The position numbers were made by a program, and so were the translations under genes. Of a DNA stretch of 64,000 nt, positions 27,351 through 32,527 are shown one piece after another. Numbering within the stretch: position 1 is the first letter of the stretch; each line of letters opens with the position of its first letter. The stretch lies in NCBI GenBank assembly GCA_025056735.1, contig JANWVR010000012.1, positions 1-64,000 of the forward strand. Direction: 5' to 3'. The notes under the pieces were generated by a model. That model saw only the letters and a list, made by a program, of their open reading frames with translations. It was not told the DNA's origin and ran no database searches. The DNA is from Saprospiraceae bacterium. GTDB lineage: Bacteria > Bacteroidota > Bacteroidia > Chitinophagales > Saprospiraceae.

Positions 27351-29330
27351 ATGTCCAAACTGCGTTTGCTTGTAGCCCTTTTCCTGTTTTGCGTTGGCAT
27401 GGCCAGCGCTCAGCCCACCGAGGAGTACCTCGATGACCCAGTGTTGTTTACGGTGGGCCAGACGCCCGTTCGAGTGTCCGAATTTTTGCAGATTTACACC
27501 AAGAGCAACCAGCAAAAGGCCGACTTCTCAGAGGCCTCTATGCGCGAGTACTTAGACCTGTACGTCAAGTTCAAGCTCAAGGTGCAGAAGGCGCGCGAAA
27601 TGCGTTTGGATACCCTTCCGGCGTTTCGCAGCGAGTTGGAGGGCTATCGGCGCCAGTTGGCGGCGGCCTACTTAGTGGATCGCGAGGTGACGGAGAAGCT
27701 GATTCGCGAGGCCTACGAACATATGAAACAAGATGTTGAGGTCAGCCACATCCTCGTGCCGTGCAGCCGCGATGCCTTGCCTGCCGATACGCTGGCGGCG
27801 TTTCAGCGTGCCAATACCCTGCTCCAGAGGGCGCTCAAAGGCGCCGACTTTGCCCAGTTGGCTCGCGACAGCTCAGAAGACAAGTCCACTAAGGAGGCCG
27901 GTGGCTATGTAGGCTTCGTTACTGCTTTGCTGCCCGATGGCTATTACGGGTTTGAGAAAGCCATTTACAGCGCTAAGCCTGGTGTTGTGCCCTACGTTGT
28001 GCGCTCGCACCAGGGATATCATATCATTAAGGTACACAGCTTCCGTCCTGCTCGCGGTGAGGTAGAGGTAGCGCACATTCTCATTCGCAAAGGCGACAGC
28101 GAGGAAGCCAACTACCTCAAGCGCCAGCGCGCCGACAGCGCTTACCTTGCCGCGCAGCGCATGCCGTGGGACGAAGCCTGCATGCTCTACTCCGACGATC
28201 AGGTCAGCGCCGCAAAAGGCGGTTACGTAGGCGCTTTCGGCATCAATCGCTACCAGCGTAGCTTTGAAGAGGCCGCCTTTGCCTTAGAAAAGGACGGCGC
28301 CATCTCACCTCCGGTAGAAACCAGCGTGGGCTGGCACATCATCAAACGCCTCGCTCGCCGCACCTTGCCTCCCTTCGAAGAGATGCGCCGCGCCCTGTCA
28401 GAGCGCGTCAAGCGCGATAGCCGTAGCGAAATCGCCCGCCGAAGCCTCATCCAGCGCATCCAACGAGAGGCCAACTTCCGCGAATACCCTCAAAACCTCC
28501 AAACCTGGGCCAGCCAACAGGTGGACTCCATTTTCCACACCTTCCGATGGAAACCCGACTCCACCGCCCCGCAAACGCCGCTTATGCAATACGGCAACCG
28601 CATCTACACCGTGGCCGACTTCGAGGAATTCCTCGCCCGATCCAGCCGCGAACGCATGCGCGGATTGGGCCTGCCCATCGAACAAACCATCGCTACCCTG
28701 TACCAAAACTGGATTGACGAAGCTGCTATTGCTTACGAAGAAAGCCAGTTAGACAAAAAATATCCCGAATTCCGGCACCTTATGCGCGAATACGAAGAGG
28801 GTATGCTCCTTTTCGACGCCGCCAAAATCGAAGTCTGGGACCGTGCCAATACCGACACCGTCGGCCTCCAGCGCTATTTCGATGAACACCTCAAAACCAA
28901 ATACCTATGGGACGAACGCGCCGTCGTCAGCTTCTACACCCTAAAGTCCGAAGACTCCATCCTGCTCAAAAAAGTGCGCGACTTTGCCGCCAAAAATGGG
29001 CCAGAAGACGTTCTGAAAAAATTCAATAAAAAGGGAGAAGTCCTCGTCCGGTTGGAAAAAACCTACGAAAAGGGCCGTAACAAGGACGTGGACAGCATCT
29101 GGCGTGCAGGCGGCATGTCAGAACCCAAACGCGACACCGCCACTAAGACGGCTTCGTTCCTCAAAGTAGAACGCCTGCTGCCACCTTCGCCCAAAGGCCT
29201 TAACGACGCTCGCGGCTATGCGGTAGCCGACTACCAGGACTACTTAGAGAAAAAATGGGTGGAGCAACTGCGCACCCAGTACCCGGTCAAGATCAACGAA
29301 GACGTCCTACAGGCGCTGATTAAGCGATAG
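27351..29330 (+). CDS. Periplasmic peptidyl-prolyl isomerase with two parvulin domains
   Basis: A 659-aa exported protein with signal peptide MSKLRLLVALFLFCVGMASAQ. Two consecutive rotamase (parvulin) domains are readable. The first runs from VEVSHILVPCSR to GYHIIKVHSF with KEAGGYVGFV. The second runs from VEVAHILIRKGDSEEAN to VGWHIIKRLARR with AAKGGYVGAFG. The flanking helical regions resemble SurA/PpiD chaperones. The C-terminal ~300 residues are rich in charged residues and not otherwise recognised. It probably helps outer-membrane or secreted proteins fold, which suits the T9SS cargo in this genome. It has its own promoter. Confidence 0.9.
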   Translation: MSKLRLLVALFLFCVGMASAQPTEEYLDDPVLFTVGQTPVRVSEFLQIYTKSNQQKADFSEASMREYLDLYVKFKLKVQKAREMRLDTLPAFRSELEGYRRQLAAAYLVDREVTEKLIREAYEHMKQDVEVSHILVPCSRDALPADTLAAFQRANTLLQRALKGADFAQLARDSSEDKSTKEAGGYVGFVTALLPDGYYGFEKAIYSAKPGVVPYVVRSHQGYHIIKVHSFRPARGEVEVAHILIRKGDSEEANYLKRQRADSAYLAAQRMPWDEACMLYSDDQVSAAKGGYVGAFGINRYQRSFEEAAFALEKDGAISPPVETSVGWHIIKRLARRTLPPFEEMRRALSERVKRDSRSEIARRSLIQRIQREANFREYPQNLQTWASQQVDSIFHTFRWKPDSTAPQTPLMQYGNRIYTVADFEEFLARSSRERMRGLGLPIEQTIATLYQNWIDEAAIAYEESQLDKKYPEFRHLMREYEEGMLLFDAAKIEVWDRANTDTVGLQRYFDEHLKTKYLWDERAVVSFYTLKSEDSILLKKVRDFAAKNGPEDVLKKFNKKGEVLVRLEKTYEKGRNKDVDSIWRAGGMSEPKRDTATKTASFLKVERLLPPSPKGLNDARGYAVADYQDYLEKKWVEQLRTQYPVKINEDVLQALIKR

Positions 29331-29436
29331 GGTTTCTAAGGACCCGCTCCTCCTTGCCTGTCAGGAGGGAACAAAAGCACCCAGAGGCCCCATCCGATAC
29401 AGACGCATCTGCCGTAGCGTATTTTTTAAGGATAAA

Positions 29437-29892
29437 ATGCTAAAAAAGGACTGGACATCGGTTTGTCGCTCGTTGGAGTACTTCTGCGCGCGCCGCGAAC
29501 GCTCCCCTGCAGCCGTGCGGCGCCGCATGGCTGAATTGGGTCTGGATGAAGTAGCGGCACAAACGCTGTGGGAGCACTTGGTGCGCGACCGTTTCGTGGA
29601 CGAGGAGCGATACGCCTGCGCATTTGCCAACGACAAAATGCGCCTCGAACGCCGAGGCCGCCTACTCATCCGCTGCGCATTGCACCAACAGGGCGTGTCC
29701 CCTGCCGCCATCGAGCGGGCACTCACCGCCCTTGACCCTCAAGAATACGCCGATGCCTTTCGGCAAGCGTTGGCACAGAAACGCCGCTATTACGCTGGCC
29801 ACCCCAACGCCAACCTCAAAGTGCGAGCAGCCCTCCTCCGCGCCGGCTTTGAACCCGAACTCTTCGAGCACTTGAACGACTTGGAAACCTGA
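29437..29892 (+). CDS. recX: Regulatory protein RecX
   Basis: RecX inhibits RecA filament growth and recombinase activity. The 151-aa length and three-helix repeat pattern fit: LEYFCARRERSPAAVRRRMAE, then VRDRFVDEERYACAFANDK, RLLIRCALHQQGVSPAAIERAL and KVRAALLRAGFEPELFE. recA is not nearby, so it is a stand-alone copy. An AAGGA stretch lies just upstream of the ATG. Confidence 0.88.
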   Translation: MLKKDWTSVCRSLEYFCARRERSPAAVRRRMAELGLDEVAAQTLWEHLVRDRFVDEERYACAFANDKMRLERRGRLLIRCALHQQGVSPAAIERALTALDPQEYADAFRQALAQKRRYYAGHPNANLKVRAALLRAGFEPELFEHLNDLET

Positions 29893-29995
29893 TTTTTGAG
29901 TAAAAATGTAATTCAACCACTCAGCGCGATATGCAGTTGAAGAACTAACTTGCTGCGCAAAACGTAACCTTCATTGCTCAAACTGCTGCATCGCT

Positions 29996-30229
29996 ATGAA
30001 AAAGACAAAACTCACCTTACAACAGCTGCAACTGGAGAGTTTCGTAACTGCGCTCGAACCGGAACAAATGGTCCAGGTCAAGGGAGGGCGTTATGAAATT
30101 CGCGGACGCCGCTTTACTTATCGTACGCGCTGGACTTCGGTGGATACGCGCTCCGATGAAATGGAAGGTACCCAGCCCAGCCTCCAGGTGGGCAGCCACC
30201 ACAGCGACACGCCGCGCACAATTTTCTAA
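29996..30229 (+). CDS. Double-glycine leader peptide, RiPP-precursor-like
   Basis: A 77-aa product. The first 32 residues match the leader of Bacteroidota peptide precursors: a basic start, alternating LTLQQLQLESFVTAL, then acidic and polar residues and VKGG, the double-glycine site cut by C39 peptidase transporters. The 45-residue tail is rich in Arg, Ser and Thr and contains no cysteine, so lanthionine rings in the classic sense are not possible. No LanB/LanC-like, radical-SAM, YcaO or C39 transporter gene is in the window. Its stop codon overlaps the stop of the convergent gene at 30226. The function is unknown. Confidence 0.75.
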   Translation: MKKTKLTLQQLQLESFVTALEPEQMVQVKGGRYEIRGRRFTYRTRWTSVDTRSDEMEGTQPSLQVGSHHSDTPRTIF

Positions 30230-31773
30230 CCCGGGCGGCCAGCGTTCTGGCGTCTCCATTTATCGCGGACAACAGAAGCAAATGAACGGCCGTGAGCTTT
30301 GGCTTCTACCCAGGCCTCTAAATCAAACGTTTGCAACAGGGCATACGCTTCGGGCTGGTTGGCCAGCTGGCGTATGTCCTGTTGCATTTTTTGAAAAACC
30401 GCTCGCTGGGCTGCGGCATTGGGTGCGTTGAGCAACTCGCTCATGCCGTGAAAGAAACGCCGCTCCAGTTCGTAGAGGCGCTTTTTGCGGCGCAGCAATT
30501 GGGCGGTCGAACGCAATAGCGACTCCAGCAGCAGGGTATTGCCCATGTCGAAGTGAAGAGCCATGGCCAGAATACGCCCCAAGCTTTGCAGGTCTTCGCG
30601 CTCCAACGTGCGAGGCTGGTTGTTCCAGGCATTCAAATAGGTGAGGGCCCGATCGTAGTCGGCGCATCCAAAGCAGATGTAGCAGTATTGGAAGTAGAAG
30701 CTGGCTGTCTCGTATTCGTGCGAGGCAAAGAGCGTGGCTTCTTGTTGGCAGTGCTCCATCTCGCGGCGGCCTTCGTCGAAGGCGCCGGTGTAGATGCACA
30801 GCGCAAACTTATTGGTGTAGTACTGGCGGTGAATTTTGAGGGCGTCGTCTCGTGTCAAGGGTTTGATCCTCTTGAGTTTATCGAGCGTTTTTTCCACTTC
30901 GTCGTATCGGCTGGTGAGGCCACAGGAGAGGATGTAGTTGCTGAGGGCGGCAATGTAGTCGGCCTGGTTTTCGCGCAGGAAGTGCGGTTGGCTTTCGAGC
31001 AGGCTTACCAAATGTCGTCCGCTGTGGTAGAAGGCCTCGCGTTCGCCGGCGGCGTAATAGCAGAGGTTGAGCGTTCGGTAGCAAAGGACGCGCGCGGTGT
31101 GTGAGCGCGCTTGTTCGGCGCGCTGCAGCAGAGGGTGGCTGCGCAAGGCGCGCAGCTGTTCTTGGCCTTTTTCGGTGTGCAGAAGGGCCTCTCGCTTGAC
31201 CAAAAGATAGGCTTGAAAAAACAGATTTCGATACTCGATGATCTCCGCCAACTGAGCAGCGGCATCGCGCTCGCGCGCTTGCAGCAGGTCCAGCTGTTTG
31301 TGCAGCAAGTCCACGTCCATCTGTGTGTAGGCTAAATGCCTTTGCCAGCGCACGACATCGAGCAAATGAGAAAAGGACTCGTAGCGCTGGGCCAGTTTCT
31401 CCGCTTTGTATAGATAGTTCTGGCAGGCGCCGTAATGCCCGCGCCGATACAGCACAGCAGCGCTCTGCAGCAAGTGATTGAGCCGAAATTCGGCCGAGCG
31501 CTCTGCATCGTAGGCTTGCAGGCTTTTAAGCACTAAGTCGAAGAGGTAAATTTTCAGCTCAGAATATCGCTGGCTGCTCTGGGGGTCGTCAGGGTAAATC
31601 CGTTGGCGCAAGGCCTCATCGTCGAAACGCTCCATGCTGGCCATGGCATCGAACAACAGAGCGTATTTGCTGTGTGCCTGTGCGCTGCCGATAAAGACGT
31701 GAAAATGCCGCTTCTCGGCAGGCGTCAGACTGCGGATGAGGCGGTGCAGCTTATCCGAGGGCGATTTGGCCAT
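30226..31773 (-). CDS. Helical-repeat (TPR-like) cytoplasmic protein
   Basis: A 515-aa protein without signal peptide or membrane helix. The N-terminus DKLHRLIRSLTPAEKRHFHVF matches a recurrent Bacteroidota family that begins with a 'LxxLIKSLTxxEKRYFK' pattern. The rest is almost entirely amphipathic helices in TPR-like pairs (LNHLLQSAAVLYRRGHYG, NYLYKAEKLAQRYESF, TLNLCYYAAGEREAFYHS). No enzyme motif or HTH domain is seen. Function unknown; such arrays bind peptides or proteins. It is convergent with the leader-peptide gene (overlapping stops) and divergent from the LytTR gene. Confidence 0.8.
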   Translation of the reverse strand: MAKSPSDKLHRLIRSLTPAEKRHFHVFIGSAQAHSKYALLFDAMASMERFDDEALRQRIYPDDPQSSQRYSELKIYLFDLVLKSLQAYDAERSAEFRLNHLLQSAAVLYRRGHYGACQNYLYKAEKLAQRYESFSHLLDVVRWQRHLAYTQMDVDLLHKQLDLLQARERDAAAQLAEIIEYRNLFFQAYLLVKREALLHTEKGQEQLRALRSHPLLQRAEQARSHTARVLCYRTLNLCYYAAGEREAFYHSGRHLVSLLESQPHFLRENQADYIAALSNYILSCGLTSRYDEVEKTLDKLKRIKPLTRDDALKIHRQYYTNKFALCIYTGAFDEGRREMEHCQQEATLFASHEYETASFYFQYCYICFGCADYDRALTYLNAWNNQPRTLEREDLQSLGRILAMALHFDMGNTLLLESLLRSTAQLLRRKKRLYELERRFFHGMSELLNAPNAAAQRAVFQKMQQDIRQLANQPEAYALLQTFDLEAWVEAKAHGRSFASVVRDKWRRQNAGRPG

Positions 31774-31810
31774 AATGCGTTCCTTCTTCGAGCGCTAATG
31801 TGCGACAAAA

Positions 31811-31825
31811 CGGCATTTTATGCCG
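31811..31825. promoter_or_regulatory. Inverted repeat in the divergent promoter region
   Basis: CGGCAT-TTT-ATGCCG, a perfect 6-bp palindrome in the 137-bp spacer between the divergent helical-repeat gene and the LytTR gene. It could be an operator; nothing else supports this. Confidence 0.3.
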
Positions 31826-31910
31826 GATGGAAGCAATAAAACAAAGCGCCTCAGAAACCTGATTTATCTCCGCAACTGAACTTGCTGCGAAGAAGAGTGT
31901 CCGGGCACTT

Positions 31911-32411
31911 TTGTGCTTAGAAACGCACAGACAGATGGTAAAAAATGCTCCTGCTATGTTTAAGCCCGTGATCACCACCGTCGCCAAGGATACACCCGAG
32001 CCGTACAATGGCGCTGTTTTGCATCCGCGCTTGCCCCGGCGCCGCCGGATACCTCGAATATCTAAGTGCAAAAAGCTGGCCTTGCCCACCTTAGAAGGGT
32101 TCGTCTTCGAGAAAATGAGCCGCATCTTGTATTTAGAGGCTCAGGGGAATTATACTGCCTTACATCTGTCCGACGGGCGTCAGATATTGCTGTCGCGCAC
32201 GCTGGGCGATATGGATCGCTTGCTGCCGGAGGACCGCTTTGTGCGCATCCATCGTTCGTTTATTGTACATCTCAAGCACGTCGTCCGATACATTCGGAAC
32301 AAGCATGGCTCGGTGGTGCTCTCCAACGGTACAACCCTCAACGTCTCGCCCAATTATCGGGAGACTTTTGTGGTCGTCATGAGCCGCTATTTCTATGGCT
32401 TTCAGCCCTGA
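31911..32411 (+). CDS. Stand-alone LytTR DNA-binding regulator
   Basis: A 166-aa protein whose last ~100 residues are a LytTR domain: RILYLEAQGNYTALHLSDGR, LSRTLGDMDRLLPEDRFVRIHRSFIVHLKHV and GSVVLSNGTTLNVSPNYRETF. The N-terminal ~60 residues are basic and unstructured (HPRLPRRRRIPRIS), with no receiver domain. Single-domain LytTR proteins often act with a membrane partner or bind DNA constitutively. Alternative starts are ATG 31935 and 31956. It is followed by a structured untranslated region and a strong terminator. Confidence 0.88.
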   Translation: MCLETHRQMVKNAPAMFKPVITTVAKDTPEPYNGAVLHPRLPRRRRIPRISKCKKLALPTLEGFVFEKMSRILYLEAQGNYTALHLSDGRQILLSRTLGDMDRLLPEDRFVRIHRSFIVHLKHVVRYIRNKHGSVVLSNGTTLNVSPNYRETFVVVMSRYFYGFQP

Positions 32412-32438
32412 ATAAGACACTCGTTTACCCAAACAAAT

Positions 32439-32497
32439 AAGCATACTACTGCGGCCCAAAAGGCCCAATGATGCTTGCGCAAACATGTAAGCAGTAG
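32439..32497 (+). ncRNA. Possible structured RNA in the 3' region of the LytTR transcript
   Basis: Two mutually exclusive stems can be drawn: AAGCAT (32439-32444) with ATGCTT (32471-32476), or CTACTGC (32446-32452) with GCAGTAG (32491-32497). Both enclose a GGCC-CAAAA-GGCC hairpin (32453-32465). Together with the terminator at 32528 this makes a compact ~120-nt structured tail. It may be an attenuator-like element or a 3'-derived small RNA. Confidence 0.35.
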
Positions 32498-32527
32498 CCT
32501 GACGCGATGTAGGGTTTTGGTTTGGCA

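Follow-up and report, generated by a model that had tools for sequence, protein, structure and literature searches.

Each of the described systems that come closest to the locus reported here shares part of its make-up. As far as the consulted part of the source goes, RRNPPA quorum-sensing systems (Rap/Rgg/NprR/PlcR/PrgX/AimR) are recognized by a propeptide of 10-100 aa that is secreted by Sec or PptAB and encoded next to a receptor of 250-500 aa, which matches a TPR HMM and binds the peptide (PMC10075063). The streptococcal double-glycine (GG) signal peptides of the ComC/BlpC type, again going by the consulted part of the source, combine a GG leader with a C39 ABC exporter (PMC7595303). Precursors of pinensin-type class I lanthipeptides are characterized by their leader (NF038180), a core with Cys and Ser/Thr for lanthionine rings, a LanB dehydratase and a LanC cyclase. 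LytTR regulators are used by some of the streptococcal systems. We know of no described TPR-receptor-type peptide-pheromone system in Bacteroidota, and a literature search, which is weak evidence, turned up none.

The locus considered here lies in a 64,000-nt stretch from a Saprospiraceae bacterium (GCA_025056735.1, contig JANWVR010000012.1, positions 1 to 64,000 of the forward strand), hereafter the window. It consists of a gene for a GG peptide, a convergent gene (C0) whose product is predicted to be a TPR-fold protein, and a gene (C1) for a LytTR protein, with one sequence element found both upstream of the peptide gene and between C0 and C1. The conserved unit is real, a signalling role is its best, if unproven, reading, and the two to three genes probably form an undescribed cell-to-cell signalling system. 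Its features are listed below in window coordinates, except for the last, which is on another contig of the same genome.

29884..29915, plus strand: Box 1, GAAACCTGAYTTWT..., a candidate operator that overlaps the end of recX and has its first base 112 nt ahead of the start codon of the peptide gene
29996..30229, plus strand: double-glycine peptide gene, 77 aa, ATG start
29996..30088, plus strand: pinensin-type leader, aa 1-31, ending in KGG (NF038180 match)
30104..30157, plus strand: conserved core, aa 37-54, GRRFTYRTRWTSVDTRSD, with low column entropy in the genus
30158..30226, plus strand: variable tail, aa 55-77, pN/pS 0.93 pooled over the genus
30226..30229: CTAA, in which the stop codons of C0 and the peptide gene overlap, read from the sequence
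30226..31773, minus strand: C0, 515 aa, predicted TPR-fold partner and candidate peptide receptor, convergent with the peptide gene in 34/34 peptide-positive genus genomes
31854..31885, plus strand: Box 2, a second copy of the element, lying between C0 and C1, with its first base 81 nt from both start codons
31935..32411, plus strand: C1, LytTR DNA-binding protein without a receiver domain, divergent from C0 (PF04397, E 2e-17)
L442:4979-7321 (G000:C94): LanB-N-like protein, 781 aa (PF04738, E 1e-32), on another contig than the peptide

The peptide gene and its family

The peptide ORF (29996-30229) reads MKKTKLTLQQLQLESFVTALEPEQMVQVKGG followed by 46 residues. The preliminary description rightly assigned its leader to the GG type of Bacteroidota ribosomal peptides, residues 5-31 matching the NF038180 model (leader_pinensin) with E 9.4e-10 and 38.2 bits against a cut-off of 24. 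The tail was also correctly described as cysteine-free and rich in Arg, Ser and Thr (0 Cys, R 8, T 7 and S 5 in the part after KGG), although this part counts 46 residues rather than the 45 given earlier. The peptide is Arg-rich, with a net charge of +2. An Rfam search of 29300-32500 at gathering thresholds found no known RNA element.

The genus is represented by 42 genomes, including that of the window (G000). When 100 related genomes were searched, the peptide was found at E < 1e-9 in this genus only, in 33/42 genomes (G000 included) and once per genome, which provides the homologues with the same leader whose absence had been named as speaking against the description; a 34th genus peptide (G010) is truncated at a contig end. 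The pinensin leader model exceeds its cut-off once each in 32/42 genus genomes, always at the peptide gene. In an alignment of the 28 distinct genus peptides, columns have a mean entropy of 0.81 in aa 37-54, compared with 1.02 in the leader and 2.18 in the tail. Comparison of the window with G035, which has the nearest homologue, shows 11 synonymous and 0 non-synonymous changes in the core taken as aa 32-54, and pN/pS pooled over all genus pairs is 0.33 for the leader, 0.40 for aa 32-54 and 0.93 for the tail, values to be read with the caveat that synonymous differences (0.69-0.74) are near saturation. The core is under purifying selection and the tail is near neutral, a pattern that, by analogy, would fit propeptides with a short active stretch. 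Thr47, which directly follows the Trp, does not vary within the genus. The ORF is a real, conserved coding gene, beyond chance.

Ninety-nine family peptides of 51-87 aa were collected; KGG is kept in 92/99 and the core is Cys-free in 95/99. The motif W-x-x-[VIL]-[DEKS]-[ITVSL]-[RGQ] is present in 73/99 (43/69 outside the genus) and its stricter form W-x-x-[VIL]-[DE]-[ITVL]-R in 65/99 (35/69 outside the genus), while some of the 26 motif-less peptides retain a VDIR-like stretch without Trp. In the wider family the position after the Trp is frequently occupied by Glu, Asp or Gly. A profile made from 60 of the peptides matched 75/78 C0-positive family genomes, missing G050 and G354, whose peptides were found by eye, and G267, which is cut. 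The same profile matched 19/220 C0-negative genomes, 18 of them weakly (E at least 5e-5, ending by model position 44/69), and the sole full-length match among these comes from G175, where part of a C0 is present at a contig end. Because the 60 of 99 peptides were for the most part chosen from those bearing the W motif, and include rows from genomes later searched, the invariant W of the profile and its matches in C0-positive genomes are partly so by construction.

C0 and the LytTR gene

The peptide had been called an orphan, which is not upheld because a conserved gene for a protein of predicted TPR fold is paired with it, joined in the genus by a LytTR gene; the genome also encodes an exporter, at another place. 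C0 is the constant tail-to-tail neighbour of the peptide in 21/21 regions (20 genomes plus the window), where simple BLAST clusters place LytTR next in 17/21 and recX upstream in 11/21. As raw counts, in which relatedness is ignored, peptide and C0 (orthologues at E < 1e-100) are both present in 34/42 genus genomes and both absent in 8/42 (G001, G002, G004, G013, G015, G018, G036 and G040).

C0 orthologues (E <= 1e-70) were found in 78/298 family genomes and 37/112 genera sampled, with 73 of the 78 outside the genus, among which 70 are assessable and three (G265, G267 and G311) are cut at the 3' side by contig ends. In 68/70 assessable genomes C0 has, within 1.1 kb, a convergent GG peptide whose core has diverged; G294, in which the peptide is convergent with C0 at a distance of 1.2 kb, brings the count to 69/70. 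The stretch of ~1.2 kb between the two genes in G294 (L241/L291) has repeat-like content by eye. In G052 both genes are kept, the peptide on another contig than C0. By sequence C0 is a distant full-length relative of the BT2802 family (NF058569), at 131 bits far under the 550-bit cut-off of that model, and the filter found a convergent GG peptide at 0/40 loci of distant C0 paralogues (BT2802 itself not among them), its only matches there being non-convergent (L151, L162 and L163). This comparison is to be read knowing that outside-genus peptides were called by the filter and seven more by eye (L187, L193, L203, L207; L236-L238), whereas for paralogue loci only the filter was used. When one looser rule was applied to both sets, 61/67 orthologue rows passed vs 1/40 paralogue loci, and the single paralogue case seems to be the end of an ordinary IMP-dehydrogenase-like gene. 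The distant relatives form a large uncharacterised family, with 15 or more matches in each of G068 and G099.

The ends of C0 and the peptide gene overlap in 32/67 outside-genus rows (which include two distal tandem C0 copies), 13 of them by exactly 4 nt as in the window, and 14/67 rows have gaps of 44-297 nt. Overlapping stops could by themselves slow the separation of the two genes. Tandem duplication of C0 was seen in three genomes, at L199 (G158), L206 (G247) and L238 (G187), where a single peptide gene was found, at the 3' end of the outer copy. The 75 orthologue records are labelled Saprospiraceae, Saprospirales, Chitinophagales, Lewinella, Phaeodactylibacter or Bacteroidetes/Bacteroidota bacteria; one belongs to a cultured bacterium, Phaeodactylibacter xiamenensis KD52, in which peptide, C0 and LytTR are all present at the locus.

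For C1 the ATG at 31935 was chosen, in an ORF that opens at 31911. It is matched at E <= 3.7e-32 in 34/34 C0-positive genus genomes; among the eight C0-negative ones, seven have only paralogue-level matches (best 1.6e-18) and G004 has none at E <= 1e-8. In a profile search, a LytTR gene divergent from C0 was found at 65/101 C0 rows (one locus being counted twice and tandem copies apart) and at 0/40 paralogue loci; outside the genus it was detected at 36/72 C0 loci and undetected at the other 36/72. No histidine kinase was found at the locus.

C0 has neither a signal sequence nor a membrane segment by eye. Its AlphaFold2 model, made with 70 orthologues, is all helical, with a pLDDT of 91.4 and a pTM of 0.86, and its best PDB matches in VIA-align 2 are RapI (Z 18.8, rmsd 5.0, 306 aligned), NprR (17.6) and Rap phi105 (17.6). 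Close behind come LGN (Z 17.4), more Rap entries and proteasome TPR proteins (16.5), on a scale where helical repeats reach Z 13-14 by common arrangement alone. Foldseek with the same model returned nothing at E <= 1e-3; its best rows above that value are mostly TPR or other helical-repeat proteins, Rap among them. Pfam TPR models gave no match at E <= 1, and the PADLOC TPR profile one at E 0.013 only. This structural ranking suggests, without proving it, a role of C0 as a peptide receptor. Mean column identity is 63% in the N-terminal 100 residues (51 sequences) vs 55% over the whole protein (70 sequences), the two alignments holding 51 and 70 of 100 distinct C0 proteins. Several assignments were tried and rejected: a pyrin domain for the N-terminal 100 residues (best Foldseek E 0.35, disbelieved), which matched no known fold; solved relatives by sequence (two matches at E 0.03, disbelieved); and anti-phage defence, for which C0 gave only the TPR profile (E 0.013) and one for Cas13a (E 0.06), and peptide and LytTR nothing at E <= 0.1.

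A shared upstream element

A GAAACCTGAYTT-like sequence is visible before the peptide in the alignment of 30/30 genus loci. Box 1 is found by a strict regular expression in 24/30 of them, at 95-160 nt ahead of the peptide ATG, and by a second expression in 29/30, and the CCTGAYT core of the element occurs 39-234 nt upstream of C0 in 29/29 intact genus C0 loci. A 14-letter pattern has two sites in the 3.74 Mb of G000, both at the peptide/C0 locus (0.2-0.45 expected), two in G011, likewise both at the locus, and none in G002, which lacks the system. It detects only one of the two boxes of G035, and a control pattern gave 2 matches in 10 genomes vs 32 sites listed with the real one. In the window, Box 1 overlaps the recX stop codon (29437-29915), so that the candidate operator lies partly within a coding end; it is also retained in genomes without recX upstream.

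The larger genus genomes have extra sites. The GAAACCTGACTT element stands 77-187 nt before eight secreted-looking genes (L314, L325, L307, L302, L299, L313, L316 and L321), possibly a wider regulon. Two of the eight match a GWxTD domain just below cut-off, L325 has two copies of the element ~43 bp apart, and L313 and L316 are element-bearing loci in genomes without the peptide. Among the peptide-negative genomes, 3/8 have the element, with one site each, two of these sites being 87 and 93 nt before a secreted-type gene; at L305 it sits inside an ORF. The element is thus not exclusive to the peptide/C0 system. Outside the genus it was found at 21/69 peptides and 25/65 C0 genes, including C0 genes in loci without LytTR, so that LytTR need not bind it. 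Its place at that distance before the ATG of eight further genes would suit a sigma-factor-type promoter, a reading that is weakened because at L175, L178, L191 and L211, which have no LytTR and no plus-strand gene in reach, the element can only serve C0, in the other orientation. At L193, L210 and L216 a plus-strand gene that resembles uvrC by eye follows the element at a distance of 111-139 nt.

Export, signalling and competing explanations

A search of G000 for C39 transporters, as had been advised, yielded a single match at E <= 1e-5, a PCAT of 731 aa that is unlinked to the peptide and directly followed by a gene for HlyD, so that the genome does encode the processing machinery whose lack would have spoken against the description. 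C39 matches occur in 42/42 genus genomes, and the exporter is therefore not dedicated to this system. Judged by sequence, a GG leader together with a C39 peptidase ABC exporter in one genome is what would be expected of a C39-exported double-glycine peptide, and the leader match suggests a route other than Sec or PptAB.

That the locus is an RRNPPA-like peptide/TPR signalling unit using GG export is the reading we favour, at a little under even confidence. Like RRNPPA systems, it has a small propeptide gene (77 aa; 51-87 aa in the family, n=99) adjoining that of an apparently cytosolic protein of predicted TPR fold, a short conserved stretch in an otherwise variable propeptide, and RapI, NprR and Rap as the top structural matches of C0; adjacency holds in 34/34 genus genomes and 69/70 assessable ones outside, one of them with the genes 1.2 kb apart. 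Unlike them, it occurs in Gram-negative Saprospiraceae, has a GG leader instead of a Sec or PptAB signal, convergent and often overlapping genes, and a separate LytTR protein, and C0 has no Pfam TPR or HTH match. At 515 aa C0 is slightly over the receptor size range, and it lacked the TPR match among those HMMs of the source that were run (PMC10075063). With ComC/BlpC-type systems it shares the GG leader and a C39 ABC exporter, as far as the consulted part of the source describes them, and differs in having a LytTR protein that lacks a receiver domain, a partner of predicted TPR fold, an unlinked exporter and a locus at which no histidine kinase was found (PMC7595303).

In the favoured scheme, the peptide would be made with its GG leader, the unlinked C39 ABC exporter, acting with HlyD, would cleave and export it, and the signal would be the conserved core or a fragment of it. 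After re-import, or through some other form of sensing, it would be bound by C0 in the cytosol, as Rap, NprR or AimR bind theirs, and C0 would pass its state to transcription. LytTR would be the likely DNA-binding output where present, and a feedback loop may be closed by the element that the peptide and C0/LytTR share upstream, with whatever binds it. Joint presence in 34 and joint absence in 8 of 42 genomes, and convergence in 69/70 genomes outside the genus vs 0/40 paralogue loci, argue for such a unit, as do purifying selection on the core beside a near-neutral tail, the C0 model with its best structural matches, the two element sites of G000, LytTR divergent from C0 at 65/101 rows vs 0/40, and the C39 exporter with its HlyD adaptor. 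Against this reading count the closeness of LGN and proteasome TPR proteins behind Rap, the lack of Foldseek matches at E <= 1e-3 and of Pfam TPR matches, the 515 aa of C0 and an N-terminal region of 100 residues with no known fold match, as well as the non-exclusive element, the non-dedicated exporter, the overlapping stops and the 36/72 outside-genus C0 loci at which LytTR went undetected.

A lanthipeptide was rejected because of the Cys-free cores (95/99) and the absence of LanC at E <= 1e-5 from G000. The peptide shares with pinensin-type precursors a leader over the curated cut-off, and the genome has a small LanB-like protein as a candidate dehydratase; the peptide differs from them in a core without Cys, the absence of LanC and of a biosynthetic cluster, and a single conserved chromosomal locus. 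It might instead be an unclustered RiPP whose Ser/Thr would be modified, or whose core would be extended, by the LanB-like protein guided by the leader, with C39 secreting the product and C0 serving as cytosolic escort or regulator of production. The pinensin-type leader and the invariant Thr47 speak for this, as does the small LanB-N-like protein (E <= 1e-5), which is present in 34/34 peptide-positive genus genomes (31 over the curated cut-off) and 3/8 peptide-negative ones (Fisher p 7e-5, relatedness ignored). That association may, however, trace back to a loss in a single small-genome lineage or a few of them; peptide and LanB-like gene are unlinked, LanC is missing from 26/34 peptide-positive genomes as well as from G000, nearly all cores lack Cys, and Glu, Asp or Gly frequently follow the Trp in the family, so that we consider this account unlikely. 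The LanB-N-like protein (~790 aa) is nearly genus-wide (37/42), while LanC is rare (8/42, with 33 other genus genomes lacking it like G000). The protein may be an unlinked modifier or an enzyme of the peptide aminoacyl-tRNA ligase type. The earlier suggestion to look for LanB-like and radical-SAM enzymes thus led to a candidate in the first case, albeit unlinked, and in the second to one SPASM protein in G000, which is uninformative because such proteins (35/42 genus genomes) occur both with the peptide (30/34) and without it (5/8).

Export itself would be dispensable if the peptide stayed in the cytosol and bound C0 there, inhibiting or activating it, with overlapping convergent transcripts adding antisense control. 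C0 has no export or membrane signal by eye, the shared element fits, and the frequent overlap of gene ends outside the genus means that transcripts would be complementary at their 3' ends; yet the GG leader is kept family-wide despite diverging core and tail, which export explains best, and a C39 exporter is present in every genus genome, making this decidedly unlikely. It is very improbable that the peptide is bacteriocin-like, with C0 as its immunity or self-protection protein: a GG leader, a positively charged, Arg-rich sequence and a fixed partner gene are set against a single copy per genus genome, a conserved core and a C0 that, as a large protein of predicted TPR fold and apparently cytosolic location with LytTR next to it, is to our knowledge unlike any immunity protein. 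Hardly credible, finally, is the absence of any functional link, with two ordinary genes held together by overlapping stops that are hard to separate. That recX is often found upstream as well (11/21 regions) would fit it, but joint absence in 8 genomes, the shared element, pairs kept despite the 44-297 nt gaps and the 1.2 kb of G294, and the unlinked retention of both genes in G052 all argue against it.

The preliminary description was justified in proposing an undescribed small system, since the unit is conserved and no description of it was found. Our tentative view, held with less assurance than the RRNPPA-like reading of the locus itself, is that it represents a Gram-negative counterpart of RRNPPA systems, widespread in Saprospiraceae, in which a C39-exported GG peptide, a tail-to-tail Rap-like cytosolic TPR sensor and a shared operator would be combined, often with a receiver-less LytTR protein. 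Leader-based searches can mistake such peptides for lanthipeptides, the NCBIfam pinensin cut-off being passed here without Cys and without LanC. If the signalling reading is true, many genera of an environmental family (C0 in 37/112 genera sampled) would have a dedicated peptide signal, the partner, promoter element and exporter of which can be named.
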